The position numbers and the translations under genes are program-made. A DNA stretch of 64,000 nt, taken from NCBI GenBank assembly GCA_002951815.1, contig CP019454.1, positions 2,790,001 to 2,854,000 on the forward strand. Reading direction: 5' to 3'. The notes under the pieces are model-generated. The model was given only the letters and a program-made list of their open reading frames with translations, had not been told where the DNA came from and did not search any database. This DNA is from Sulfobacillus thermotolerans. Lineage in GTDB: Bacteria; Bacillota; Sulfobacillia; Sulfobacillales; Sulfobacillaceae. This document shows, piece by piece, positions 620-13,853 of the stretch; within the stretch, counting starts at the first letter, position 1, and each line of letters opens with the position of its first letter.

Positions 620-1264
620 CTAACCATTACGCAGCAATGCCTCAAACCATACAGCAAGGGCATCAATACCCTTGCCTTTAGACAAGGTGAAAATCGGACG
701 ATTCGCGCCCAACTCCTGAAAATCGTGGGATACTTGCCCCATGTCAAACTCCGTATACGGCAAGAGGTCCGTCTTCGTGACAGCCAATGCATCCACTCGA
801 CGAAACAACGTGGGGTACTTGACAACTTTGTCCGCGCCTTCAACTGTACTCAGAACCGCCAAGCGCCGATGTTCACCAAGGAAAAAATCCGCCGGACACA
901 CTAAATTGCCCACATTTTCGATAAAGAGCAAATTCAGCTGAAGCGACTCTAGCGCCTCCAATCCCGACCGCACCATTCTTCCATCCAAGTGGCACACGCC
1001 TTGAGTCTCCAATTGGATCACAGCCACCCCCAGTGCCGCAATCCTTTGAGCATCGCGAGACGTCGCCACATCCCCCTCAATAACCCCGATGCGGAAGTCC
1101 TTTTGCAATACGGGGAGAAGGTATTCAAGCAAAGTCGTCTTTCCAGCTCCAGGTGACCCCATGATATTGACCGCACGAATGCCATGTTTGTCGAGCCACT
1201 GGCGATTGCTATCGCCCTCACTATTGTTCAATGCCCAAACATCGTGATGCAGATCTACGTGCAT
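620..1264 (-). CDS. hypB: Hydrogenase nickel-incorporation GTPase HypB
   Basis: A 214-residue cytoplasmic P-loop GTPase that, with HypA, inserts nickel into the [NiFe] active site. The Walker A motif GSPGAGKTT is near residue 37, EGDVATSRDA follows, and the guanine-specificity motif is TKTD near residue 160. The N-terminus is short and has neither a CxxCGC nickel site nor a His-rich stretch. The adjacent His-rich protein downstream may supply that function (inference). ATG at 1264 has GAGGAAG about 10 nt upstream. It is co-transcribed with hypA (21-bp gap). Confidence 0.97.
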   Translation of the reverse strand: MHVDLHHDVWALNNSEGDSNRQWLDKHGIRAVNIMGSPGAGKTTLLEYLLPVLQKDFRIGVIEGDVATSRDAQRIAALGVAVIQLETQGVCHLDGRMVRSGLEALESLQLNLLFIENVGNLVCPADFFLGEHRRLAVLSTVEGADKVVKYPTLFRRVDALAVTKTDLLPYTEFDMGQVSHDFQELGANRPIFTLSKGKGIDALAVWFEALLRNG

Positions 1265-1285: not shown

Positions 1286-1642
1286 TTACAGGATTTCTTC
1301 ATCCTCTCCGTCGTACCCCACGACCGCAAATTCCTCGCCATGCACCAACCTTGTCAAAACTGAATGGCAGTCAGGGCACATCAGATCGCGAGCTGGCCCT
1401 TCAAAATGGCATTCCAAACACTGCAGGTGAACGGGTACCATCTCGATCCGTAAAACAGCCGCATCATCCAGCCACGCATAGCTCGATCGCATGGCATCGA
1501 ACGCAAAGGTTAGGGCATCAGGCAACGCTCCATTCATGACCCCGACCTGCAACTCCACCGTCTTTACCCATTTGAGATGATTGTCCTGCCGAGATTCATC
1601 AACAATTTGCAGCACACTGGCGATTAGCCCTGCTTCATGCAC
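1286..1642 (-). CDS. hypA: Hydrogenase nickel chaperone HypA
   Basis: A 118-residue HypA. It starts with the nickel-binding MHE tripeptide (here a GTG start, then His2-Glu3) and has the structural zinc site CLEC...CPDC near residues 73-92. HypA delivers Ni(II) to the large-subunit precursor together with HypB. Its length is normal for the family. AGGAGGG lies 5 nt before the GTG at 1642. It sits between the uncharacterised 252-residue gene and hypB in the minus-strand operon. Confidence 0.95.
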   Translation of the reverse strand: MHEAGLIASVLQIVDESRQDNHLKWVKTVELQVGVMNGALPDALTFAFDAMRSSYAWLDDAAVLRIEMVPVHLQCLECHFEGPARDLMCPDCHSVLTRLVHGEEFAVVGYDGEDEEIL

Positions 1643-1652
1643 GTTGTCCCTC

Positions 1653-2411
1653 CTAACGCACCCATCCGAGTGAATCTAAGAAAATTGTGCCGGTCACATC
1701 TATCCATGCTAAAGCTTTTAATACCGTCTCCTCCGGTTTGTCAGGCCATTGCGCTTCGCCAATCCAGTCGGTTAATGTGGCAGATAATCGGCCTTGTTCT
1801 CGCTCTAGCGTCATTCGCATGGGCAACAGATCACGAATAGAGGGCGAAACCCGGCTTAGTTGCTCAACAAATTGCAGCGGTGTCAATTCCAGCAAAGCGT
1901 GGTCACTGTCTAGGAGAAGTCCTGTGACCTCATAGTCATTGGAACGAGCGATCTCGGCAAGATGGTCCAAAAATTTTTGCATTGGAAGCCGTGACCGCAA
2001 CACGGCAAGTCGCTGTCCTCGTCGTCCTCGCACCGTCGCCCACCACTTGGTCATGGAGTCAGATGGTATTTCAACCTTTTCCTGAGCATCGCCAATTGGT
2101 ACCGCATCTTGCCAAAATCTATTTTCTAACGCCATAAGGGTCTGGCGCATCCCGTCGTAATCGTTCCACAGCCAATCTTCAGTCTGTACCACCTGCTCTT
2201 CTAGGAGCCGTAACGGGTAATCGTATCGGTACAAAAACTCGATGGCCTCTTGTATTTCAGATTCCCACTGCAGACGGTCCTGGTACCATTGTTTAATGTT
2301 CGCAGCACTCCACCCAAAATCCAGAATACGCCATTGCAGTGTCTGTTCTACAAAAGCTCTGCGCTCCGCCAATTCCTGTTCGGTTTGATCCCGAAAGACC
2401 TGCCACTCCAC
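1653..2411 (-). CDS. Uncharacterised hydrogenase-locus protein
   Basis: A 252-residue protein with no signal peptide, no membrane span and no family I recognise. The sequence is rich in Trp (14 or so), Gln, Glu and Leu, and looks mainly helical. No Cys or His pairs suggest a metal site. GTG at 2409-2411 is preferred because AGAGGA lies 6 nt upstream. It is locked into the operon between the NapF-like ferredoxin gene (19-bp gap) and hypA (10-bp gap). That implies a role in assembly, electron transfer or regulation of this hydrogenase, but nothing in the sequence says which. Confidence 0.8.
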   Translation of the reverse strand: MEWQVFRDQTEQELAERRAFVEQTLQWRILDFGWSAANIKQWYQDRLQWESEIQEAIEFLYRYDYPLRLLEEQVVQTEDWLWNDYDGMRQTLMALENRFWQDAVPIGDAQEKVEIPSDSMTKWWATVRGRRGQRLAVLRSRLPMQKFLDHLAEIARSNDYEVTGLLLDSDHALLELTPLQFVEQLSRVSPSIRDLLPMRMTLEREQGRLSATLTDWIGEAQWPDKPEETVLKALAWIDVTGTIFLDSLGWVR

Positions 2412-2430: not shown

Positions 2431-3015
2431 TTATCTAGGTACGACTTGAATAGCACCAGGAGGACACGCCGGGACACAACGTCCACATCCTATACACACC
2501 AGACGTGATATCTCAGGAGCTTGCCCTGGGCGTCGCTGCAAAGCACTGTTCGGAAAAGGACAGGCGGTAACACAGCCCTCCCCACAATCTGGATGACTCG
2601 TTGTCATCCAACAGCGACGGATATCAATCACGGCCGTTCCCATCTGTATTTGCCATGATGCCTCTAAGGGGTGCAACGCTCCTGTTTCACAAGCTCCGAT
2701 ACACGGCATATCCTGACAAGCCCAGCATGGACGCTGATTCACCATGATGGCGGCCAGCCCTTCGTCATCCGGACTAATCGCTTGTGCCGGACAAACCTGA
2801 GCACATCGGCCGCATCCCGTACAAAGCTCGCAGAACTCGTCTTCAGAATGAGCTCCTGGCGGACGAAACACTCGTTTAGTCCTCACAGAGCCCGTATGGT
2901 CTTCTCGCAAAGCATTAGAAAAAGGACGAGGGGCTATCGGCCATAGTGATTGAAACAACGCCCGCCGCGATATATGTCCGGTTTGTTTGACAAATTTAAC
3001 ACCCCGTGGCCACAT
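2431..3015 (-). CDS. NapF-like multi-cluster ferredoxin
   Basis: A 194-residue iron-sulfur protein with four Cys groups: CELCTGCGRCAQVCP, CWACQDMPCIGAC, a CW...DCGEGCVTACP group and CIGCGRCVPACPPG. The N-terminus (SRRALF followed by a basic stretch and VFRPPG) resembles NapF/NapG-type ferredoxins of periplasmic nitrate reductase loci. No nap genes are present, and it is embedded between hypC and the 252-residue gene. It may accept or donate electrons near the hydrogenase, or help assembly (inference). The ATG at 3015 has only a weak GGGGAG about 11 nt upstream, so the exact start is less certain than the family. Confidence 0.83.
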   Translation of the reverse strand: MWPRGVKFVKQTGHISRRALFQSLWPIAPRPFSNALREDHTGSVRTKRVFRPPGAHSEDEFCELCTGCGRCAQVCPAQAISPDDEGLAAIMVNQRPCWACQDMPCIGACETGALHPLEASWQIQMGTAVIDIRRCWMTTSHPDCGEGCVTACPFPNSALQRRPGQAPEISRLVCIGCGRCVPACPPGAIQVVPR

Positions 3016-3017
3016 CG

Positions 3018-3260
3018 CTAAGGATGCTCCCCCTCGTCTTCGTTGCCAAATACATAGCGTAGCGCTTCTCTCATTGCTTGTTGCCCTTCTTCTTCCGTAA
3101 GCTTTTCTAACACCAAATTCGCCTCGATCAAAACCCAGTCACCTTCACGAAGATCATCAATGCCCTCGTAAAAGGCATGTCGCGTGCGTCCTCCTCCTTC
3201 CACGAGACAACGCGATTCATCGAGCACTTTGACTACTTTTAGAGGCAGAGCCAAACACAT
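3018..3260 (-). CDS. hypC: Hydrogenase assembly chaperone HypC/HybG family (copy near structural genes)
   Basis: An 80-residue protein starting MCLALPLKV, the N-terminus that carries the catalytic Cys2 of HypC, followed by the typical beta-barrel with ..GDWVLIEANLVLEKLTEEE. HypC passes the Fe(CN)2CO unit from HypD to the large subunit. The frame is open upstream, but ATG 3258-3260 has AAAGGAG 7 nt before it and gives the exact family N-terminus. It overlaps the 3' end of hyaD by 44 bp. Two further HypC-family genes lie near hypD, so this one, beside hyaBCD, is probably the large-subunit-specific chaperone. Confidence 0.92.
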   Translation of the reverse strand: MCLALPLKVVKVLDESRCLVEGGGRTRHAFYEGIDDLREGDWVLIEANLVLEKLTEEEGQQAMREALRYVFGNEDEGEHP

Positions 3261-3813
3261 CGCGTTTCTCCTTTCCTTGCCGAAGGTCGTCATCCAACAA
3301 ATCACGGTCCGGTCGGTCAAAATCTACGTCATTCTGAATTTCCAGATGCACGCCCCACTGCCGCAATTGCTCGGTAATTACCTGCTCCATTGCTTCAACA
3401 CGGTCCCTAACGACGGACGATAGGCCAATATGGGTGCTGACAATGTCATACGGCTCCATCGCGATAAACTGCACATCCGGCAATTCTCCCATCAATTTCA
3501 AGGAGACCAGCACTCCGATAACTTCTGTTTCATGAGCACCTGCCGTAACATGCCATCCCCATTCCACCGCGTCTTCATAACGAAATCGGTACACTTTTCC
3601 AGGAATCTGTGCCATAAGGGCCGCATCAACAATCAACACACGCTGATAGGAGGCAATCCGGTCAATCAATTGGTAGGCCATTGTTCCACCGTCAACCACA
3701 TCGACGGTGGGTTGAAAGCGATACTTATCACGAAGGTAATGCACCATATGCACCCCTAAACCTTCATCGGCGAACAAAATATTCCCGACCCCTAAGACCA
3801 AAATATCTGCCAT
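3217..3813 (-). CDS. hyaD: Hydrogenase maturation endopeptidase (HyaD/HupD)
   Basis: A 198-residue cytoplasmic protease that removes the C-terminal peptide of HyaB after nickel insertion. The GVGNILFADEGLGVH motif holds the nickel-sensing acidic residue at E17. VDGGTMAYQL near residue 40 and AGAHETEVIGVL near residue 92 supply the second acid and the His. The C-terminal 35 residues are charged, longer than usual, and overlap hypC. It starts 1 bp after the hyaC stop. Confidence 0.93.
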   Translation of the reverse strand: MADILVLGVGNILFADEGLGVHMVHYLRDKYRFQPTVDVVDGGTMAYQLIDRIASYQRVLIVDAALMAQIPGKVYRFRYEDAVEWGWHVTAGAHETEVIGVLVSLKLMGELPDVQFIAMEPYDIVSTHIGLSSVVRDRVEAMEQVITEQLRQWGVHLEIQNDVDFDRPDRDLLDDDLRQGKEKRDVFGSASKSSQSAR

Positions 3814-3814
3814 G

Positions 3815-4507
3815 TTATTCGTTCTCCGAGGCTTGGTCTACGCGCATATGAGTCCCGGTTAGCATCGTATCAATCGTTCCATCGCGATTTTCTACGGTAT
3901 TCCACACCACCATGTAGACATGGCCCACAACGAAGACAATAATGCTCCACGCCAACCAAATGTGCCACGTGCGGACCCCAACCAACCCGCCAAACCAAGG
4001 ATAAAGAAAGCCGAGTTGATGATAGATAAAGGAGCCAAAACCAGGTCCATTATAATTGGCCCCAAACAGCAAGAACCCGGTTATGGAAATCAAGATTAAC
4101 GCCACATAAAAGGCCGCATAAAAGGCAAATTGCAAAGGCCCGTAACGCACTCCGGGATGACGATATTTGCGCCCAAATAGTCCGTAATAGGCCAATTGCT
4201 TTTTCCAAGCCGCTTTAGAAAACAACACCCGACCATCTTTATACTCATGTGTCCGCAAGAAATCATAGATGCGAACCAATTCGGTCGCAATTAACGTAAA
4301 CCCCGCCATTTCATGCGTTCCGCGGACCCAATTCATAAGAAAGTCCTTCCACGTCGGGACGAGGGGATTATAAAGCACAAAAGGCTGACCGATTTCAAAG
4401 CCCGTTAGCACTAAATACACGATAAGCGCAACACGCAACCAATGCATCCAGCGTGTAGCCGGGGAAAACAACACATGCGTGCGCTTCTCCGGCACATTTT
4501 CCGTCAT
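3815..4507 (-). CDS. hyaC: [NiFe] hydrogenase b-type cytochrome subunit (HyaC)
   Basis: A 230-residue integral membrane diheme cytochrome b that anchors the hydrogenase and passes electrons to the quinone pool. It has four hydrophobic spans (around residues 25-45, 120-150, 155-175 and 185-210). His residues in RWMHWLRV, THEMAGF and the C-terminal span (HIWLAWSIIVFVVGHVYMVVWN) match heme-ligand positions of the HyaC/HupC family. ATG at 4507 has GGAGGA 10 nt upstream. It follows hyaB directly, which shows that this is a membrane-bound respiratory uptake enzyme. Confidence 0.93.
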   Translation of the reverse strand: MTENVPEKRTHVLFSPATRWMHWLRVALIVYLVLTGFEIGQPFVLYNPLVPTWKDFLMNWVRGTHEMAGFTLIATELVRIYDFLRTHEYKDGRVLFSKAAWKKQLAYYGLFGRKYRHPGVRYGPLQFAFYAAFYVALILISITGFLLFGANYNGPGFGSFIYHQLGFLYPWFGGLVGVRTWHIWLAWSIIVFVVGHVYMVVWNTVENRDGTIDTMLTGTHMRVDQASENE

Positions 4508-6286: not shown

Positions 6287-7564
6287 TTAAGAATTGACAG
6301 GGGGCTTGGGGGGAGTGTCCTGAGGCGGCGGATTCTTCCATTGTGGGGCAGTTTTGTCACGAATTACGGTAGCCGTTGCATGAATCGCAATCCCCACTGC
6401 TGCAGCGCCTACGACCACTTCTCCTACCGTATTGGCTGCAGCGTCAATGCCAATACCCAACGCTGAACCATATACCTTAGCCCCCAACGGCTGTTCAAAA
6501 GGCGTCATCGTATCCCAGAAATTCGGTTGCGCGCACCCAATGCAGCCATGGCCGGCCCGAATAGGCCATGAGACCTGTTGGTTCCAGCGCACCTGAGGAC
6601 AATTGTTGTAGGTATAGGGACCTTTGCAGCCCATCTTGAACAAACACCATTCGTTTTGTGCGGCGGTATCTCCCCAATTAAGCACGTATTCTCCGGCATC
6701 AAAATGGCCGCGTCGCTCACAATTATCATGAATGCGGTGCGCATACGCCCATAAAGGACGGCCATAACGGTCCAAGGCCGGATTGTCATTAAACATCACA
6801 ACCTCTAAGATTGTCCCGACCAAATTCACGGCATTGGCCGGACAACCCGAGATATTGACGACGGGAATATTCAAGGCGTCTCCCACTCCCTTAGCCCCTG
6901 TTGGGTTGGGTTGCGCGGCAGGGATTCCCCCAAAAGCTGAGCACGTACCCGCGGCCATGACCATTTTGGCTCCCGAAGCTACGCGCGTGGCCAAGGAGAT
7001 GCCGGTTTCAGCGTTAGCCCCCGTCGTAAAGAAAGTTCCGTTATTACCCAAGGGCACAGACCCTTCAAATATGGCAACGTATTGCCCATGGTGTTTGGCA
7101 ATCACTTCGTTCATGCGGTCCATCGCCTGATATCCAGCCGCTGCCATTACGGTTTCGTTATAATCAAGAGAAATCGTATCTAAAATCAACGACGCAAAGC
7201 CCGGATCCGATGTTCTTAACAAGGACTCCGTATTACCGTCGCAATCTTGGAGGTTAATCCACACGACCGGTAATTTTGACGATACGGCTGCTGCCCGAGC
7301 AACTCGGCTTTCAAAAATCGGCGGCAACATCAATGCGGCCGTCATCATCGAACTCCACTTGATAAAATCCCGGCGCGTTAACCCAAGTGCCATAAACCGT
7401 TCAACAAAAGCTCCCGATACGGTCCCGTCGGGATCGATTGCATGCAAACGCCGGTCGACATCCTCTACGGCTCGCGTAATATCTTCATTTGAATGGTCCG
7501 TAATGCCTTCAAGCGGTCTTCCGGTTACTTTCGGCAACTTATCCCAGTTCACTGGAGAATCCAT
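6287..7564 (-). CDS. hyaA: [NiFe] hydrogenase small subunit with Tat signal (HyaA), unusual proximal-cluster ligand
   Basis: A 425-residue electron-transfer subunit. The Tat motif LTRRDFIKW (63-70) and a hydrophobic core are preceded by an unusually long 60-residue n-region. A C-terminal span (about 365-390) anchors it outside the membrane beside HyaC. Distal-cluster ligands are seen at HDNC, C and C (WCLFKMGCKG), medial ligands at YNNC and GHGCIGC, and proximal ligands at GTCSAFGG and SGCP. At the first proximal motif the usual CxGC reads C108-D-G-N111: the second Cys is Asn. Oxygen-tolerant actinobacterial-type enzymes use Asp as fourth proximal ligand; here the codon is AAT, one base from GAT. 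The Cys-poor motif separates it from standard group 1d (six-Cys) enzymes. The AGGGGGAG ribosome site supports the ATG at 7564. Confidence 0.96.
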   Translation of the reverse strand: MDSPVNWDKLPKVTGRPLEGITDHSNEDITRAVEDVDRRLHAIDPDGTVSGAFVERFMALGLTRRDFIKWSSMMTAALMLPPIFESRVARAAAVSSKLPVVWINLQDCDGNTESLLRTSDPGFASLILDTISLDYNETVMAAAGYQAMDRMNEVIAKHHGQYVAIFEGSVPLGNNGTFFTTGANAETGISLATRVASGAKMVMAAGTCSAFGGIPAAQPNPTGAKGVGDALNIPVVNISGCPANAVNLVGTILEVVMFNDNPALDRYGRPLWAYAHRIHDNCERRGHFDAGEYVLNWGDTAAQNEWCLFKMGCKGPYTYNNCPQVRWNQQVSWPIRAGHGCIGCAQPNFWDTMTPFEQPLGAKVYGSALGIGIDAAANTVGEVVVGAAAVGIAIHATATVIRDKTAPQWKNPPPQDTPPKPPVNS

Positions 7565-8443: not shown

Positions 8444-8635
8444 TTACTCCTTAGACCGTCGAGCACTGGCGTCTTCTACTTCTGTTGATCCCCACCCCTT
8501 TTGGGCTTCTTTAAACATCTTCAAGGTTTTTCCTATACTCGATCCCAATTCTGGAAGACGGCGTGGACCAAAAATTAACAAGGTCACGACAAGCAAAATA
8601 ATGACATGGAGCGGATCGAAAAGACCGGTCAACAT
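8444..8635 (-). CDS. tatA: Twin-arginine translocase subunit TatA/E
   Basis: A 63-residue TatA. One N-terminal membrane span (LHVIILLVVTLLIFG) is followed by the hinge FGPRRLPELGSSIGKTLKMFK amphipathic helix and a charged tail. TatA polymers form the pore that exports folded Tat substrates. AGGAGG precedes ATG 8633-8635. No tatC is in the window. Its position in the hydrogenase operon, upstream of a Tat-signal HyaA, suggests that it is dedicated to exporting the folded HyaAB dimer. Confidence 0.92.
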   Translation of the reverse strand: MLTGLFDPLHVIILLVVTLLIFGPRRLPELGSSIGKTLKMFKEAQKGWGSTEVEDASARRSKE

Positions 8636-8670: not shown

Positions 8671-9786
8671 CTAGCAAATCCGCGGTAAGGGATCCCCCAC
8701 CAACATATCGAGTACCCGTGTCCCGCCTAGCAGGGTCTCTAAAAACACCATGCCCCCGGGGTTGTCTTGAACTTCGCCAATTACGCAAGCCTGTGTCCCA
8801 TCGGGATGTTGACGCATAGCCGATAAAGCTTCCCCCACACGGTCCGAAGATACGACTGCCAGCAGTTTTCCTTCATTGGCAATCGTTAGGGGATCAAGCC
8901 CTAGAATTTCACACGCACCGCGTACGGCTGCGTCTACCGGAAGTGCCTCTTCAAAGACCTTAATGGCCACATTGGACCCTACCGCCATTTCATTCAAGGT
9001 AGTCGCCACTCCCCCACGCGTAGGGTCTTTTAATGCGTGCACACCGCTTCCTACCGCTTGCAACAACACATGCACAAGACTATAAAGGGGACGAGTGTCA
9101 CTGATGATAGGGGACTGCATCTCGATCCCCTCCCGCGTCAACATGACGGCAATCCCATGATTTCCGATGCTACCGCTTACCAAGACCTTATCCCCCGGCT
9201 TAATGTGACCTTGACCCATAGGCCACTGGCGTTCGATCACACCGACTCCCGCCGTATTGATGTAAATGCCGTCGCCCTTACCACGTGGCACCACTTTAGT
9301 GTCGCCCGTCACCACCGCGATACCAACACGCCGCGCTGCATCCGCCATAGTCGTCAGGACTTCCCGTAGTAACGCGGTCGATACTCCCTCTTCCAGTATC
9401 AATCCCGCTGACAAAGCCATAGGTCTGGCGCCTGCCATAGCCAAATCGTTAACCGTACCGTTGATGGCCAAATCTCCAATGTTTCCGCCGGGAAATATGA
9501 CGGGACTTACGGTATAACTATCTGTGGTGAAAGCTAAAGCACCTTCGCCGCACGATGGAAGAAACGTAGCCAAGGGAAGAACCGCCGCATCGTCAAGACT
9601 ATCGAGCGCTGGATTGGATAATAGAGGACGAATTAATCCTTCAATCAAATCATGGCTAGATTTTCCCCCCGCTCCGTGACTCATAGTAATCCGGTCTTCC
9701 TTCAACATCCGGTGCCGACGTCTTGCCTGCTGGGCTTTAGTAATAGCATCCAAGACTTCTTCGGGAGATTTCTTCGGTGGTGTCAT
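8671..9786 (-). CDS. hypE: Hydrogenase maturation protein HypE (carbamoyl dehydratase)
   Basis: A 371-residue PurM-like ATP-binding protein that turns the carbamoyl group on its C-terminal Cys into thiocyanate, the source of the CN ligands. The essential C-terminal PRIC is intact. The N-terminal MSHGAGGKSSHDLI and the DPTRGGVATTLNE motif are typical. About 30 extra residues precede the usual N-terminus. The ATG at 9784-9786 has AAAGGAG 7 nt upstream and overlaps the hypD stop as TGATG; a GTG one codon earlier is also in frame. Confidence 0.97.
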   Translation of the reverse strand: MTPPKKSPEEVLDAITKAQQARRRHRMLKEDRITMSHGAGGKSSHDLIEGLIRPLLSNPALDSLDDAAVLPLATFLPSCGEGALAFTTDSYTVSPVIFPGGNIGDLAINGTVNDLAMAGARPMALSAGLILEEGVSTALLREVLTTMADAARRVGIAVVTGDTKVVPRGKGDGIYINTAGVGVIERQWPMGQGHIKPGDKVLVSGSIGNHGIAVMLTREGIEMQSPIISDTRPLYSLVHVLLQAVGSGVHALKDPTRGGVATTLNEMAVGSNVAIKVFEEALPVDAAVRGACEILGLDPLTIANEGKLLAVVSSDRVGEALSAMRQHPDGTQACVIGEVQDNPGGMVFLETLLGGTRVLDMLVGDPLPRIC

Positions 9787-10931
9787 CACTCGTCTCCTTT
9801 TACCAGGGGATGCACAAGTTGTTCTCGCTCACGAGCCATAGAATAGCGCCCGTAATTGTAATAAGCTGCGCATGCGCCTTCCGCGGACACCATACACGTT
9901 CCAATCGGCTTTTCTGGCGTGCAGGCCGTGCCGAAAACTCCACACTCCCACGGTTTTATGCGGCCCCGCAAAACGGACCCGCACTGGCAAGCTGGATGGT
10001 CAGGCACATGTCGGCCGGGAATAGCAAAATGGGCTTCGGCATCAAAGGCGGCATATTCTGGGCGTAATCGCAACGCGCTGTGAGGAATTGTTCCGAGACC
10101 ACGCCATTCAAACTCCTCGCGCGGCTCCATGGTTTTGGCAATCATCTGCTGCGCCAACATATTACCTTCTGGCGAGACAACGCGACTGTATTGATTTTCA
10201 ACTTGGCGAATATCTTGACTCAGTTGACGCACGACCATTAGTACCGACTGCAAGACATCGAGCGGCTCAAAACCGGCTACTACTACCGGCTTTTCATAGG
10301 TCTGGGCGATAAAGCGGTAGGGATTCATGCCAATAACCATACTGACATGCCCTGGCGCTAAGAATCCAGAAATATCGAGCTCGGGAGAATCTAATAACGC
10401 TTGTAAGGCTGGAATCAGCATAACGTGATTGGTAAAGACCTTGAAATTGTGCACCCCGAGCGCTTGAGCCCGCGCAATTGTCACAGCCGTCGACGGAGTC
10501 GTGGTATCAAATCCAATGGCAAAAAATATCACCTGTCGCTCAGAATTCTGCTGTGCAATCTTCAACGCATCAAGCGGCGAATAGACAAAGCGCACATCGG
10601 CCCCTTGGGCTTTAATATCTATTAGACTCTGCTGCGATCCCGGTACTCGCATCATGTCAGCAAAAGTCGTAAAAATTACGCCGGGTGTTTGCGCCAAAGC
10701 CATAGCATCGTCTATACGGCCCATGGGTAAAACACACACCGGGCAGCCAGGCCCGTGTACCATTTCAATATTAGGCGGAAGCACATCCTCCAAACCATAC
10801 TTAAAAATGACATGCGTATGGCCCCCACAGACTTCCATGATTTTGACCGGTTGGCCTTTTGAAACCCGGTCAATTTCGTCACACACTCGCGCCACCAAAT
10901 CGCGGTCACGATATTCATCCATGTACTTCAT
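9786..10931 (-). CDS. hypD: Hydrogenase maturation protein HypD
   Basis: A 381-residue scaffold iron-sulfur protein on which Fe(CN)2CO is built together with HypC and HypE. Signature motifs are KIMEVCGGHTH (catalytic Cys near 40), VHGPGCPVCVLP (near 83-94), and the GFDTTTPSTA and C-terminal PxxCxCGSVLRG cluster region (HPACQCGSVLRGRIKPWEC). Length and motifs are complete. It overlaps hypE by one base and the HypC-like gene by 4 bp, so translation is probably coupled. Confidence 0.97.
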   Translation of the reverse strand: MKYMDEYRDRDLVARVCDEIDRVSKGQPVKIMEVCGGHTHVIFKYGLEDVLPPNIEMVHGPGCPVCVLPMGRIDDAMALAQTPGVIFTTFADMMRVPGSQQSLIDIKAQGADVRFVYSPLDALKIAQQNSERQVIFFAIGFDTTTPSTAVTIARAQALGVHNFKVFTNHVMLIPALQALLDSPELDISGFLAPGHVSMVIGMNPYRFIAQTYEKPVVVAGFEPLDVLQSVLMVVRQLSQDIRQVENQYSRVVSPEGNMLAQQMIAKTMEPREEFEWRGLGTIPHSALRLRPEYAAFDAEAHFAIPGRHVPDHPACQCGSVLRGRIKPWECGVFGTACTPEKPIGTCMVSAEGACAAYYNYGRYSMAREREQLVHPLVKGDE

Positions 10932-11209
10932 CGCTGTTCCTCCATCATGAAACGCGTGGGATCTTTCGGAGATAGAAGCCCCAATGCAACGCCTCCATGC
11001 ACAAGGACCTGCTGACCCACTACCACATCAGCGACTAGCGATATGTCAATTTGCCGTACACCGAAACCACTCCGCGCATAGGCCTCACCCTCGACACCCA
11101 TGGCTTCAATCGTCATGATCTCAGCGACATCTGCGCATGTTACACAGATGGGATCATCGCCTCTTTGTTGACCCATCGAAACGATGGGCACATACCACGG
11201 CGACATCAT
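10928..11209 (-). CDS. Divergent HypC/HupF-like protein
   Basis: A 93-residue protein with a CVTCADVAEIM motif followed by a small beta-barrel core ending DVVVGQQVLVHGGVALGLL, which parallels the HypC core GDWVVIHVGFA. It lacks the MCLAIP N-terminus, so the Cys2 that defines HypC is replaced in position by an internal CxxC. Genes of this type sit beside true hypC in several actinobacterial hydrogenase loci (from memory). It lies between hypC and hypD with overlaps at both ends (4 bp each). It may modulate the HypCD complex or carry the CO/CN precursor. The HypC-superfamily link is likely; the function is inferred. Confidence 0.8.
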   Translation of the reverse strand: MMSPWYVPIVSMGQQRGDDPICVTCADVAEIMTIEAMGVEGEAYARSGFGVRQIDISLVADVVVGQQVLVHGGVALGLLSPKDPTRFMMEEQR

Positions 11210-11502
11210 GATTCCTTACGCCCCTCGAAGTTCGGCGAAGGCACATCCCACAGCGCTAATTCGTCGTCTAAAGAAGTGCTTCCAAGGCTTTTCAATTCGT
11301 GCAGCATATTCTGCGCCTCTTGATCGTTAATTTTGTTCATGGCAAAGCCCACATGAATCACAACCCAATCTCCAGGCACCACTTGAATGCCTTGCTGGCT
11401 CAACAAGGAGACATCCACCATACGTCTTACGCCTGTCACATCCAATTTCGCCGAATTTTCGGATTCCAACTCCACAATTTGTCCTGGAATCGCCAAGCAC
11501 AT
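11206..11502 (-). CDS. hypC: Hydrogenase assembly chaperone HypC (copy near hypD)
   Basis: A 98-residue HypC starting MCLAIPGQIVE with the catalytic Cys2, and the conserved core VPGDWVVIHVGFAMNKIN. It partners HypD during Fe(CN)2CO assembly. The C-terminal 30 residues after ELKSLGS extend beyond the usual 75-80 residue length. AGGAGG lies 8 nt before the ATG. It is the second gene of the operon, 20 bp after hypF, and overlaps the divergent HypC-like gene. Confidence 0.95.
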   Translation of the reverse strand: MCLAIPGQIVELESENSAKLDVTGVRRMVDVSLLSQQGIQVVPGDWVVIHVGFAMNKINDQEAQNMLHELKSLGSTSLDDELALWDVPSPNFEGRKES

Positions 11503-11522: not shown

Positions 11523-13853
11523 TCAATGATGAATTACGGGGTCACAATCACGGCTATCGGTTTGAAGCCCGCTTGACGTCATGGAGGCTTGAGCGACAAC
11601 CACTTGCCCGAAACTTAATCCGCCATCATTGGGCGGTATCTCTTGATTGATGAGCAATCGGCAGTTTTTGTCTTGAAGAAACGACGCCAATGATTGAGCA
11701 AACAGGCGGTTTTGCATTACACCTCCCGATGCTGCAATCTCGGAGATCTGGTACGCCTTCGCCACTGCACAGGCAGCACGACCAAACATTTGCGCGAGCG
11801 TGCGATGAAACCGCCCGGCGATGATATGCCGATCTTCGCCGCGGAGCAAATCCCGCACAACCGCCTCGACAAGGGGAAATGGATCAATGACACCTTGCAC
11901 GTCATTAAACAAATCTGGCAGCGCATAGGCACTCACAGTGGGGTCAGCCATGTCTTCCAATTCCAGAGCTCCTTGAGCCTCAAAATCTGCCACTAGACGA
12001 CCTGCCACTAAAGCGGCTACCGCGTCAAAGAGACGTCCCGTACTAGATGTCGGCCGGGCATGCTCCGGTGTCGCCAAAAACTGCCGAAGCACACGCCACT
12101 CCTGTCGAGGCACAGAGTGAACAAATTCCAACGGCCAAGAGGTCCAATCATCCCCAAAGATTAATTGCAGGTACGTCGCAGCCATCCGCCAGGGCTCACG
12201 TACGATCCGCTCACCTCCAACCCATGGCACATAACGTAAATGCGCTGCCCGCGTGAAATGTGACCGGGTCGCGACCAGCACTTCCCCGCCCCATATGGCC
12301 CCGTCAGAGCCTAGTCCATTGCCGTCAAGTGCCAGTCCTACGACCTTCTCGACGTTGTGCTCCGCCATCACGGACGCTACATGGGCATGATGATGTTGGA
12401 CCCGTACCACGCTAGCCGCTGGCCACGCATCCACCACATCACTGGCTCCGTAGCCATGGTGGAAATCCATGGCTATAACATCCGGTTCAAATCCTTGAAG
12501 GCTCATCATATGCGCGAGAACTTCATGGAATCGGCGCTGACCTTGATCAAACTCCAAATCGCCAATATGAGGACTAAGGATAGCTTCACGACCTTGTGCC
12601 AAACAAAATGTATTTTTCATATGGCTGCCCAAGGCCAATATCGCAAAGGCAGACGACGCCGGTAAAGGAATAGCCTCGGGAACAAATCCCCTAGCTCGAC
12701 GGAGGACTTGCCGTCCGCTGACGTTGATCTGCACAACCGAATCATCCGCTGGGACCGCAATGACGCGGTTATGTGACACAACGGCATCCACCCGCGATTG
12801 CAATTCCCTAAGGTGTTCGTCACGATAGATCATGGGAGAGCCATGAAGATTGGCACTCGTCATGACCAATACGGCTGGCAATCCTAAATCTTTAAGCCTG
12901 TGCAAAAGCAGTTCGTGTATGGGAGCGTATGGCAACATAACGCCTAACCGGTTGAGTCCTGGTGCTACCTCGGGCGCAATGGATATCACGCCTTGTCGCT
13001 TGCGGAGAAGAACAATGGGCCGAACGACAGACGCCAAAATCTGTTCTTCGCGTCTTGAAACCTCACAGAATTGGCGCGCCGTCGACGTATCCAAGCTCAT
13101 TAGTGCAAAGGGCTTAGAAGGTCTCCGTTTGAGGGTTCTTAGACGCTGAATGCTAGCACTCTCCCACGCGGCGCAGGCTAAATGATATCCCCCTATACCT
13201 TTAATGGCTAATAGCTTGCCCTGAGCTAATAAGTGGACGGTCTGGTCCAACCAGTGCTCTTGGGGCGTCACACCTAATAGCTCAACGTGCGGGCCGCATT
13301 GAGGACACCCTGTCGCCTCAGCATGAAATCGGCGGTCGTCAGGATTGTGATATTCCGTAGCACAGGGTGAACACAAAGGAAATTCTGACATCGTGGTTTG
13401 ATTTCTGTCATAAGGCAACGCCTTAACCACTGTAAAACGGGGACCACACTGGGTACAGGCAATAAACGGATACTGGTAGCGTGTATTGGTAGGGTCAAAG
13501 AGTTCGCGGCGGCAGTCGTCACACAAGCCGACATCGGCCGGAATACTGAGATGGCTGGGTCCTGTCATGTGCGTTTCCACAATCTCAAACGCGACCGAAT
13601 ACTCTAGGTCTCGCGGTTCCTCTTTGATAGACTCAATACGGGCTAAGGGAGGAGGAGTCGTAGTCAAGGTTCGCTGAAAATCGGCCACTGCCTCATAAGG
13701 CCCTTCGACTTCAATAATCACACCTTGACTATTGTTGCGCACCCAGCCCGTAAGACCCCGTGCGCATGCTTCCCGATAGACAAAGGGCCGAAACCCCACG
13801 CCTTGAACCCGTCCCTCGATAAGAAACCGCATCCTGTGTGACATGGCGTTCAT
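11523..13853 (-). CDS. hypF: Carbamoyltransferase HypF
   Basis: A 776-residue maturase that makes the carbamoyl group for HypE from carbamoyl phosphate. Domains in order are acylphosphatase (RVQGVGFRPFVYREA, residues 12-26), paired zinc fingers (CDDCRRE, CTQCGPR, CSPCATEYH, CPQCGPH; about 105-185), a YrdC-like domain (about 200-380) and a Kae1-like domain with HHHAHVASVMAEH near 475 and a C-terminal SGGVMQNRLF. It is complete. GGGAGG lies 6 nt before the ATG. It is the first gene of the minus-strand hydrogenase locus, so the main promoter should lie in 13854-14000. Confidence 0.97.
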   Translation of the reverse strand: MNAMSHRMRFLIEGRVQGVGFRPFVYREACARGLTGWVRNNSQGVIIEVEGPYEAVADFQRTLTTTPPPLARIESIKEEPRDLEYSVAFEIVETHMTGPSHLSIPADVGLCDDCRRELFDPTNTRYQYPFIACTQCGPRFTVVKALPYDRNQTTMSEFPLCSPCATEYHNPDDRRFHAEATGCPQCGPHVELLGVTPQEHWLDQTVHLLAQGKLLAIKGIGGYHLACAAWESASIQRLRTLKRRPSKPFALMSLDTSTARQFCEVSRREEQILASVVRPIVLLRKRQGVISIAPEVAPGLNRLGVMLPYAPIHELLLHRLKDLGLPAVLVMTSANLHGSPMIYRDEHLRELQSRVDAVVSHNRVIAVPADDSVVQINVSGRQVLRRARGFVPEAIPLPASSAFAILALGSHMKNTFCLAQGREAILSPHIGDLEFDQGQRRFHEVLAHMMSLQGFEPDVIAMDFHHGYGASDVVDAWPAASVVRVQHHHAHVASVMAEHNVEKVVGLALDGNGLGSDGAIWGGEVLVATRSHFTRAAHLRYVPWVGGERIVREPWRMAATYLQLIFGDDWTSWPLEFVHSVPRQEWRVLRQFLATPEHARPTSSTGRLFDAVAALVAGRLVADFEAQGALELEDMADPTVSAYALPDLFNDVQGVIDPFPLVEAVVRDLLRGEDRHIIAGRFHRTLAQMFGRAACAVAKAYQISEIAASGGVMQNRLFAQSLASFLQDKNCRLLINQEIPPNDGGLSFGQVVVAQASMTSSGLQTDSRDCDPVIHH

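Follow-up and report, generated by a model that had tools for sequence, protein, structure and literature searches.

The small subunit HyaA of the [NiFe] hydrogenase of Sulfobacillus thermotolerans carries an asparagine at position 111, the column that in standard hydrogenases holds the second proximal cysteine, the fourth ligand of the proximal cluster. According to our sequence comparisons this asparagine is conserved and marks a sub-lineage within group 1b; it is a widespread variant that had been noticed before, rather than a novel type of enzyme. In analogy to the Huc enzyme of Mycobacterium smegmatis, we lean towards reading HyaAB as a group-1b-type, Tat-exported, cytochrome-b-linked, quinone-reducing uptake hydrogenase with a high-potential proximal [3Fe-4S] cluster. 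New here are how widely the Asn clades extend and which residues co-vary with the asparagine; furthermore, we add that no cysteine is left to substitute for the lost ligand, that the site matches that of Huc, and a case against Asn as a marker of oxygen tolerance.

The gene lies in a 64,000-nucleotide stretch of the S. thermotolerans contig CP019454.1 (positions 2,790,001 to 2,854,000, in the following termed the window). HyaA matches [NiFe] hydrogenase small subunits in the PDB with E values down to 2e-86 and contains a Tat signal (TRRDFIKW) and a C-terminal hydrophobic anchor. The CxGC motif reads C108-D-G-N111 in the context WINLQDC108-D-G-N111-TES, as noted in a preliminary description of this DNA, which had placed the site at 7227-7242 and was correct to within one or two codons. 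The same description had found the other ligands in place, and indeed the proximal C208 and C241, the distal H279/C282/C307/C313 and the medial C322/C341/C344 are all kept. HyaA has exactly nine and HyaB exactly four cysteines, every one of them a canonical ligand, so that the HyaA-HyaB dimer offers no spare thiol, and another cysteine stepping in as ligand, which had been considered beforehand, lacks a candidate. With Asn at 111 and no replacement in the dimer, the proximal site must therefore be unusual, as had been supposed. An AlphaFold2 model of HyaA (mean pLDDT 61) is uninformative on the cluster site, because residues 107-110, 207-226 and 268-378 score below 50.

The hydrogenase genes are part of a large operon (Table 1) with the order hypF-hypC-hypC-like-hypD-hypE-tatA-like-DUF6390-hyaA-hyaB-hyaC-hyaD-hypC-ferredoxin-252 aa protein-hypA-hypB, which is nearly identical to Sulac_3610-3626 on a plasmid of S. 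acidophilus. The Tat signal, hyaC and the tatA-like gene in this operon support an exported, b-type cytochrome-linked enzyme, and the tatA/E-like gene possibly encodes a dedicated Tat component exporting the HyaA/HyaB hydrogenase. The DUF6390 protein is a candidate accessory factor; Sulfobacillia operons keep its gene, and the examined Campylobacterota operons of the Asn type lack it. The 252-aa protein has no Pfam or NCBIfam match and lies between the ferredoxin gene or hyaD and hypA in all examined Sulfobacillia operons that reach this far (24-64% identity). Two HypC-like reading frames adjoin each other, and a third HypC-like gene follows hyaD. In the 3.317 Mb single-contig genome hyaB is the sole PF00374 match above the cut-off, with two weak sub-threshold matches elsewhere, and HyaAB is thus the only recognisable catalytic [NiFe] hydrogenase of the genome. 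A group 1 hydrogenase cluster in Sulfobacillus was already described in 2014, and an Asn at the proximal site goes unmentioned in the available excerpts of that paper (PMC4378227).

Table 1. Features of the hydrogenase operon and of a comparison locus; positions refer to the window except in the last line.
Feature	Position	Strand	Basis and remarks
hypB	620-1264	-	orthologue annotated HypB in CP003180; tblastn
hypA	1286-1642	-	orthologue annotated HypA in CP003180; tblastn
Uncharacterised 252-aa protein	1653..2411	-	conserved in L146, L217, L218, L219, L226
NapF/NapG-like multi-[4Fe-4S] ferredoxin	2431..3015	-	profile matches; kept in L146, L226, L217
hypC-like chaperone	3018..3320	-	position and annotation of S. 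acidophilus orthologue Sulac_3622; tblastn
hyaD, maturation protease	3217..3813	-	TIGR00072 above cut-off, TIGR00140, PF01750
hyaC, b-type cytochrome	3815..4507	-	TIGR02125 E 7.9e-46, above cut-off
hyaB, large subunit, 564 aa	4554..6248	-	PF00374 E 2.7e-183; its four Cys are those of the active site (RICGVC, DPCIAC)
hyaA, [NiFe] hydrogenase small subunit	6287..7564	-	425 aa; TIGR00391 E 1e-126, PF14720, PF01058
Asn-type co-varying residues D107, L128, P215, I238, A243 in HyaA	6290..7564	-	common to both Asn clades
CDGN motif, proximal cluster site	7232..7243	-	C108 = 7241-7243 (TGC), N111 = 7232-7234 (AAT)
DUF6390 gene, directly upstream of hyaA	7666..8466	-	PF19927 E 9e-76; same place in L146, L226
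tatA/E-like 63-aa ORF	8444..8635	-	PF02416 E 1.1e-16; annotated at same place in CP003180 (Sulac_3615)
hypE	8671-9789	-	orthologue annotated in CP003180; tblastn
hypD	9786-10931	-	orthologue annotated in CP003180; tblastn
HypC-like ORF	10928-11209	-	CP003180 orthologue, tblastn; weak, just below Pfam cut-off (PF01455)
hypC	11206-11502	-	CP003180 orthologue, tblastn, PF01455
hypF	11523-13853	-	orthologue annotated in CP003180; tblastn
Hydrogenases of G1084 on L225	4713-5606, 7488-8516, 13551-14702		

To judge whether N111 is more than an oddity of one sequence, orthologues were aligned. Nine genomes of the class Sulfobacillia have orthologues with the motif CDGN at 65-100% identity, those at the loci L002, L003, L004/L146, L005, L006, L019, L153 and L154 being 65-89% identical (genomes G003, G004, G011, which is S. 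acidophilus, G035, G056, G503 and G504, plus the contig L019), and the same Asn is found in the plasmid record CP003180 of S. acidophilus DSM 10332. The preliminary description had asked whether Asn is conserved in Sulfobacillus relatives or whether these all carry Asp or Cys; every class orthologue has Asn. The Asn-type genes encode the residue by AAC as well as by AAT, a second clade shares it, and the remaining cluster ligands as well as the complete maturation operon are intact. We therefore rejected the idea that the Asn stems from an error of sequencing or from a mutation that is private and non-functional, and regard its probability as negligible. The S. acidophilus plasmid, 85 kb in size (L146, L017; CP003180), carries the whole operon and in addition a group 2a Huc-like hydrogenase with the motif CNGN, hence two Asn-type hydrogenases together.

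The second clade came from outside the class. A scan of genome contigs returned mainly Cys-type group-1b-like relatives with CTGC (Desulfurella, Hippea, Shewanella, Sulfurovum) and one Asn-type locus, L094, in a Campylobacterota bin. Among 200 Campylobacterota genomes about 32 places stand out with more than 580 bits versus less than 560 for the rest, and all 20 top-scoring loci that were fetched are of the Asn type with DCAGN(S/T)EA. Over 212 small subunits, a set skewed toward relatives of S. thermotolerans HyaA, 158 have Cys at column 111, 45 have Asn, eight Asp and one His. The phylogenetic analysis places HyaA inside a group-1b-type clade (support 100/99 in one tree and 98/95 in another) that joins Campylobacterota and Shewanella group 1b enzymes and consists of two Asn clades, one of Sulfobacillia and one of Campylobacterota/Desulfurellia, together with Cys-type enzymes; the naming of the Sulfurimonas enzymes as group 1b follows PMC10066037. 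The AU test does not reject a single origin of Asn in this clade (p 0.28, and 0.18 once the motif columns are removed). The Campylobacterota genome G1084 has three hydrogenases on a stretch of about 12 kb in L225, namely a group-2-like one with CNGN as well as an Asn-type and a Cys-type group-1b-like one, the Asn-type and Cys-type operons being about 6 kb apart. Two further small subunits deviate at the site: L010 (G059), from the same class, has His (CDGH) and belongs to a clade whose fourth proximal ligand is variously Asp, Asn or His, and L158 (G489) reads NDSGDNNIS, where C108 itself is seemingly missing, possibly due to an alignment shift.

With a TIGR00391 small subunit bearing a Tat signal, a PF00374 large subunit with the RxCxxC and DPCxxC motifs and a gene for a b-type cytochrome, HyaAB has the features of a group 1 Tat-exported membrane-bound uptake hydrogenase, and its position in the trees assigns it to group 1b, although N111 replaces the fourth Cys of the four-Cys proximal cluster of this group. 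The enzyme of Methylacidimicrobium with the same change is still filed as group 1b (PMC5364354, PMC6813726), and HyaA is therefore best seen as a variant of 1b and not as a standard member. The nearest Cys-type relatives (Shewanella, Sulfurovum, Desulfurella, Hippea) share 45-52% identity and the hyaABCD arrangement, but combine CTGC with E107, Q215 and P243 in place of D107, P215 and A243. The six-Cys enzymes of group 1d (E. coli Hyd-1, C. necator HoxK) resemble HyaA in being Tat-exported and HyaC-linked, but they have CTCC and an extra Cys at 213, whereas HyaA, with nine Cys in total, has G110 and G213 instead. Group 1h does not fit either, as HyaA has Asn and not Asp, bears a Tat signal and is far from HofK in the tree. 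Likewise, only the proximal-site residues are shared with the Huc-like group 2a, which is distant in the tree, and the Tat signal of HyaA sets it apart from group 2 hydrogenases, which according to PMC4378227 are without Tat export and cytochrome b.

The assumption that Asn at this position was not described for Tat-exported, HyaC-linked hydrogenases does not hold, since it was reported in 2016 in the group 1b-type HupS of Methylacidimicrobium, and the same paper gives Asn or Asp for group 1f (Roseiflexus, Geobacter, Frankia) and Asn for group 2a (PMC5364354). These Methylacidimicrobium, Roseiflexus, Geobacter and Frankia enzymes were compared by their published description and not by alignment. 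By this description, HynAB/HupSL of Methylacidimicrobium, an acidophile like S. thermotolerans but of another phylum, is like HyaAB Tat-exported and b-cytochrome-linked, with Asn for the proximal Cys and the medial and distal ligands kept.

Only a few columns of the small subunit separate the Asn type from the Cys type, among them 107 (D versus E), 111 (N versus C), 128 (L versus F), 215 (P versus Q), 238 (I versus V or L) and 243 (A versus P). When the two Asn clades are set against 17 group-1b sequences of the Cys type, D107, L128, P215, I238 and A243 differ in all or nearly all of the Cys enzymes, and residues 107, 215 and 243 adjoin or are near C108, C208 and C241 in the sequence. HucS and other group 2a sequences combine N111 with P215 and nearly always with A243, while P215 and A243 are also found with Cys in some distant hydrogenase groups. 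A phylogenetic independent-pairs test of Asn against D107, P215, A243, I238 and L128 yielded four pairs only, so that significance was unreachable and the co-variation is suggestive; it hints that the Asn site may come with an adapted pocket. The neighbouring D109, which had been proposed as a helper ligand, does not belong to the motif that the Asn types have in common: the Campylobacterota Asn clade has Ala in this column and HucS has Ser, and we discarded this role.

The cluster type, the potential and the catalytic bias of HyaAB can be approached by comparison with Huc. HucS (group 2a; 7uur/7utd) has the site GACSGNTMSF (7uur) with Asn in the same alignment column as N111, and shares P215 and A243 with HyaA. 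All three clusters of Huc including the proximal one are [3Fe-4S], as assigned from a 1.52 Å map, the fourth residues and EPR (PMC10017518). Three remaining thiolates, no spare Cys and the HucS precedent make a proximal [3Fe-4S] cluster the most likely occupant of the HyaA site as well. N111 would then face the vacant corner of the cluster without ligating iron, and P215 and A243, next to the ligands that are left, may fit the site to the missing iron, which is in line with the co-variation of Asn with D107, P215, A243 and I238 in both group-1b-type Asn clades and the presence of P215 and A243 in HucS. However, HucS is about 30% identical overall and of another group, Huc oligomerises on HucM, P215 and A243 also accompany Cys in distant groups, and the independent changes are few. 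We found no spectroscopy or structure of any group 1b Asn enzyme in the literature.

The main rival is a proximal [4Fe-4S] cluster held by three Cys and by Asn, or by an Asn-held water or hydroxide, as fourth ligand. The model for it is group 1h, where three Cys and one Asp hold a proximal [4Fe-4S] (PMC8498564), and where an oxygen-bearing residue occupies the same column in HofK (5aa5) as well as in the enzymes of this group from relatives of Sulfobacillus (CDGD; GCDGDS in HofK). Asn coordination to a 4Fe4S cluster was assumed in PMC5364354, and one clade of class relatives has Asn, Asp and His at this column. On the other hand, HofK has Asp and not Asn, is not Tat-exported and surrounds the site with H215 and I243, where the Asn types and HucS have P215/A243. 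A neutral Asn is a weak iron ligand. An Asp-like ligation is conceivable, but the nearest Asn precedent and only solved structure found with Asn here, HucS, was assigned [3Fe-4S] by density and EPR, and we consider the [4Fe-4S] alternative rather unlikely.

If the proximal cluster is [3Fe-4S], its raised potential would make the enzyme favour the oxidation of H2 at higher potential (respiration with quinone/O2 or Fe(III)) over the production of H2. The [3Fe-4S] clusters of Huc have been linked to its large overpotential (PMC10017518); in the alignment group 2a relatives also have Gln for the distal His ligand, so that this overpotential does not stem from the proximal site alone. The complete scheme, in which a relay of [NiFe], proximal [3Fe-4S], medial [3Fe-4S] and distal [4Fe-4S] in a widespread Asn lineage of Sulfobacillia and Campylobacterota uses a Huc-like residue set that tunes an exported cytochrome-b-linked enzyme to high potential without oxygen insensitivity, is one that we put forward as plausible but tentative.

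It has been suggested that the unusual ligation could provide oxygen tolerance. In both group 1h and Huc a substitution of this ligand goes together with an enzyme that is insensitive to oxygen (PMC8498564, PMC10017518), and the S. thermotolerans genome is without another [NiFe] hydrogenase above the cut-off. In contrast, the six-Cys signature is absent from HyaA, and the only physiologically studied group 1b Asn organism that we found, M. tartarophylax, whose sole uptake enzyme is of group 1b, respires H2 only below 40 uM O2, and its enzyme is classed as oxygen-sensitive (PMC6813726), with a preliminary test of 2016 putting the limit for Methylacidimicrobium lower still (PMC5364354). As this case from the literature is microoxic, oxygen tolerance is not indicated for the Asn type; Asn alone would not be expected to confer oxygen insensitivity, and an oxygen-tolerant enzyme through a new ligation chemistry seems improbable to us. 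With the Campylobacterota loci L197-L216 as context, it may be added that Sulfurimonas pluma, although an inhabitant of oxygen-saturated plumes, expresses a hydrogenase of group 1b that is termed oxygen-sensitive (PMC10066037).

The proximal cluster governs the O2 response and the working potential of [NiFe] hydrogenases. As Asn-type and Cys-type enzymes occur side by side as sisters in cultivable bacteria, they represent a natural test of the role of the fourth ligand that is independent of Huc's gas-channel and oligomer features. If the Asn enzymes indeed have a proximal [3Fe-4S] cluster and are nevertheless sensitive to O2, the rule that an odd proximal cluster means oxygen tolerance would fail in genome annotation, and the Asn lineage would separate the tuning of potential from oxygen tolerance.
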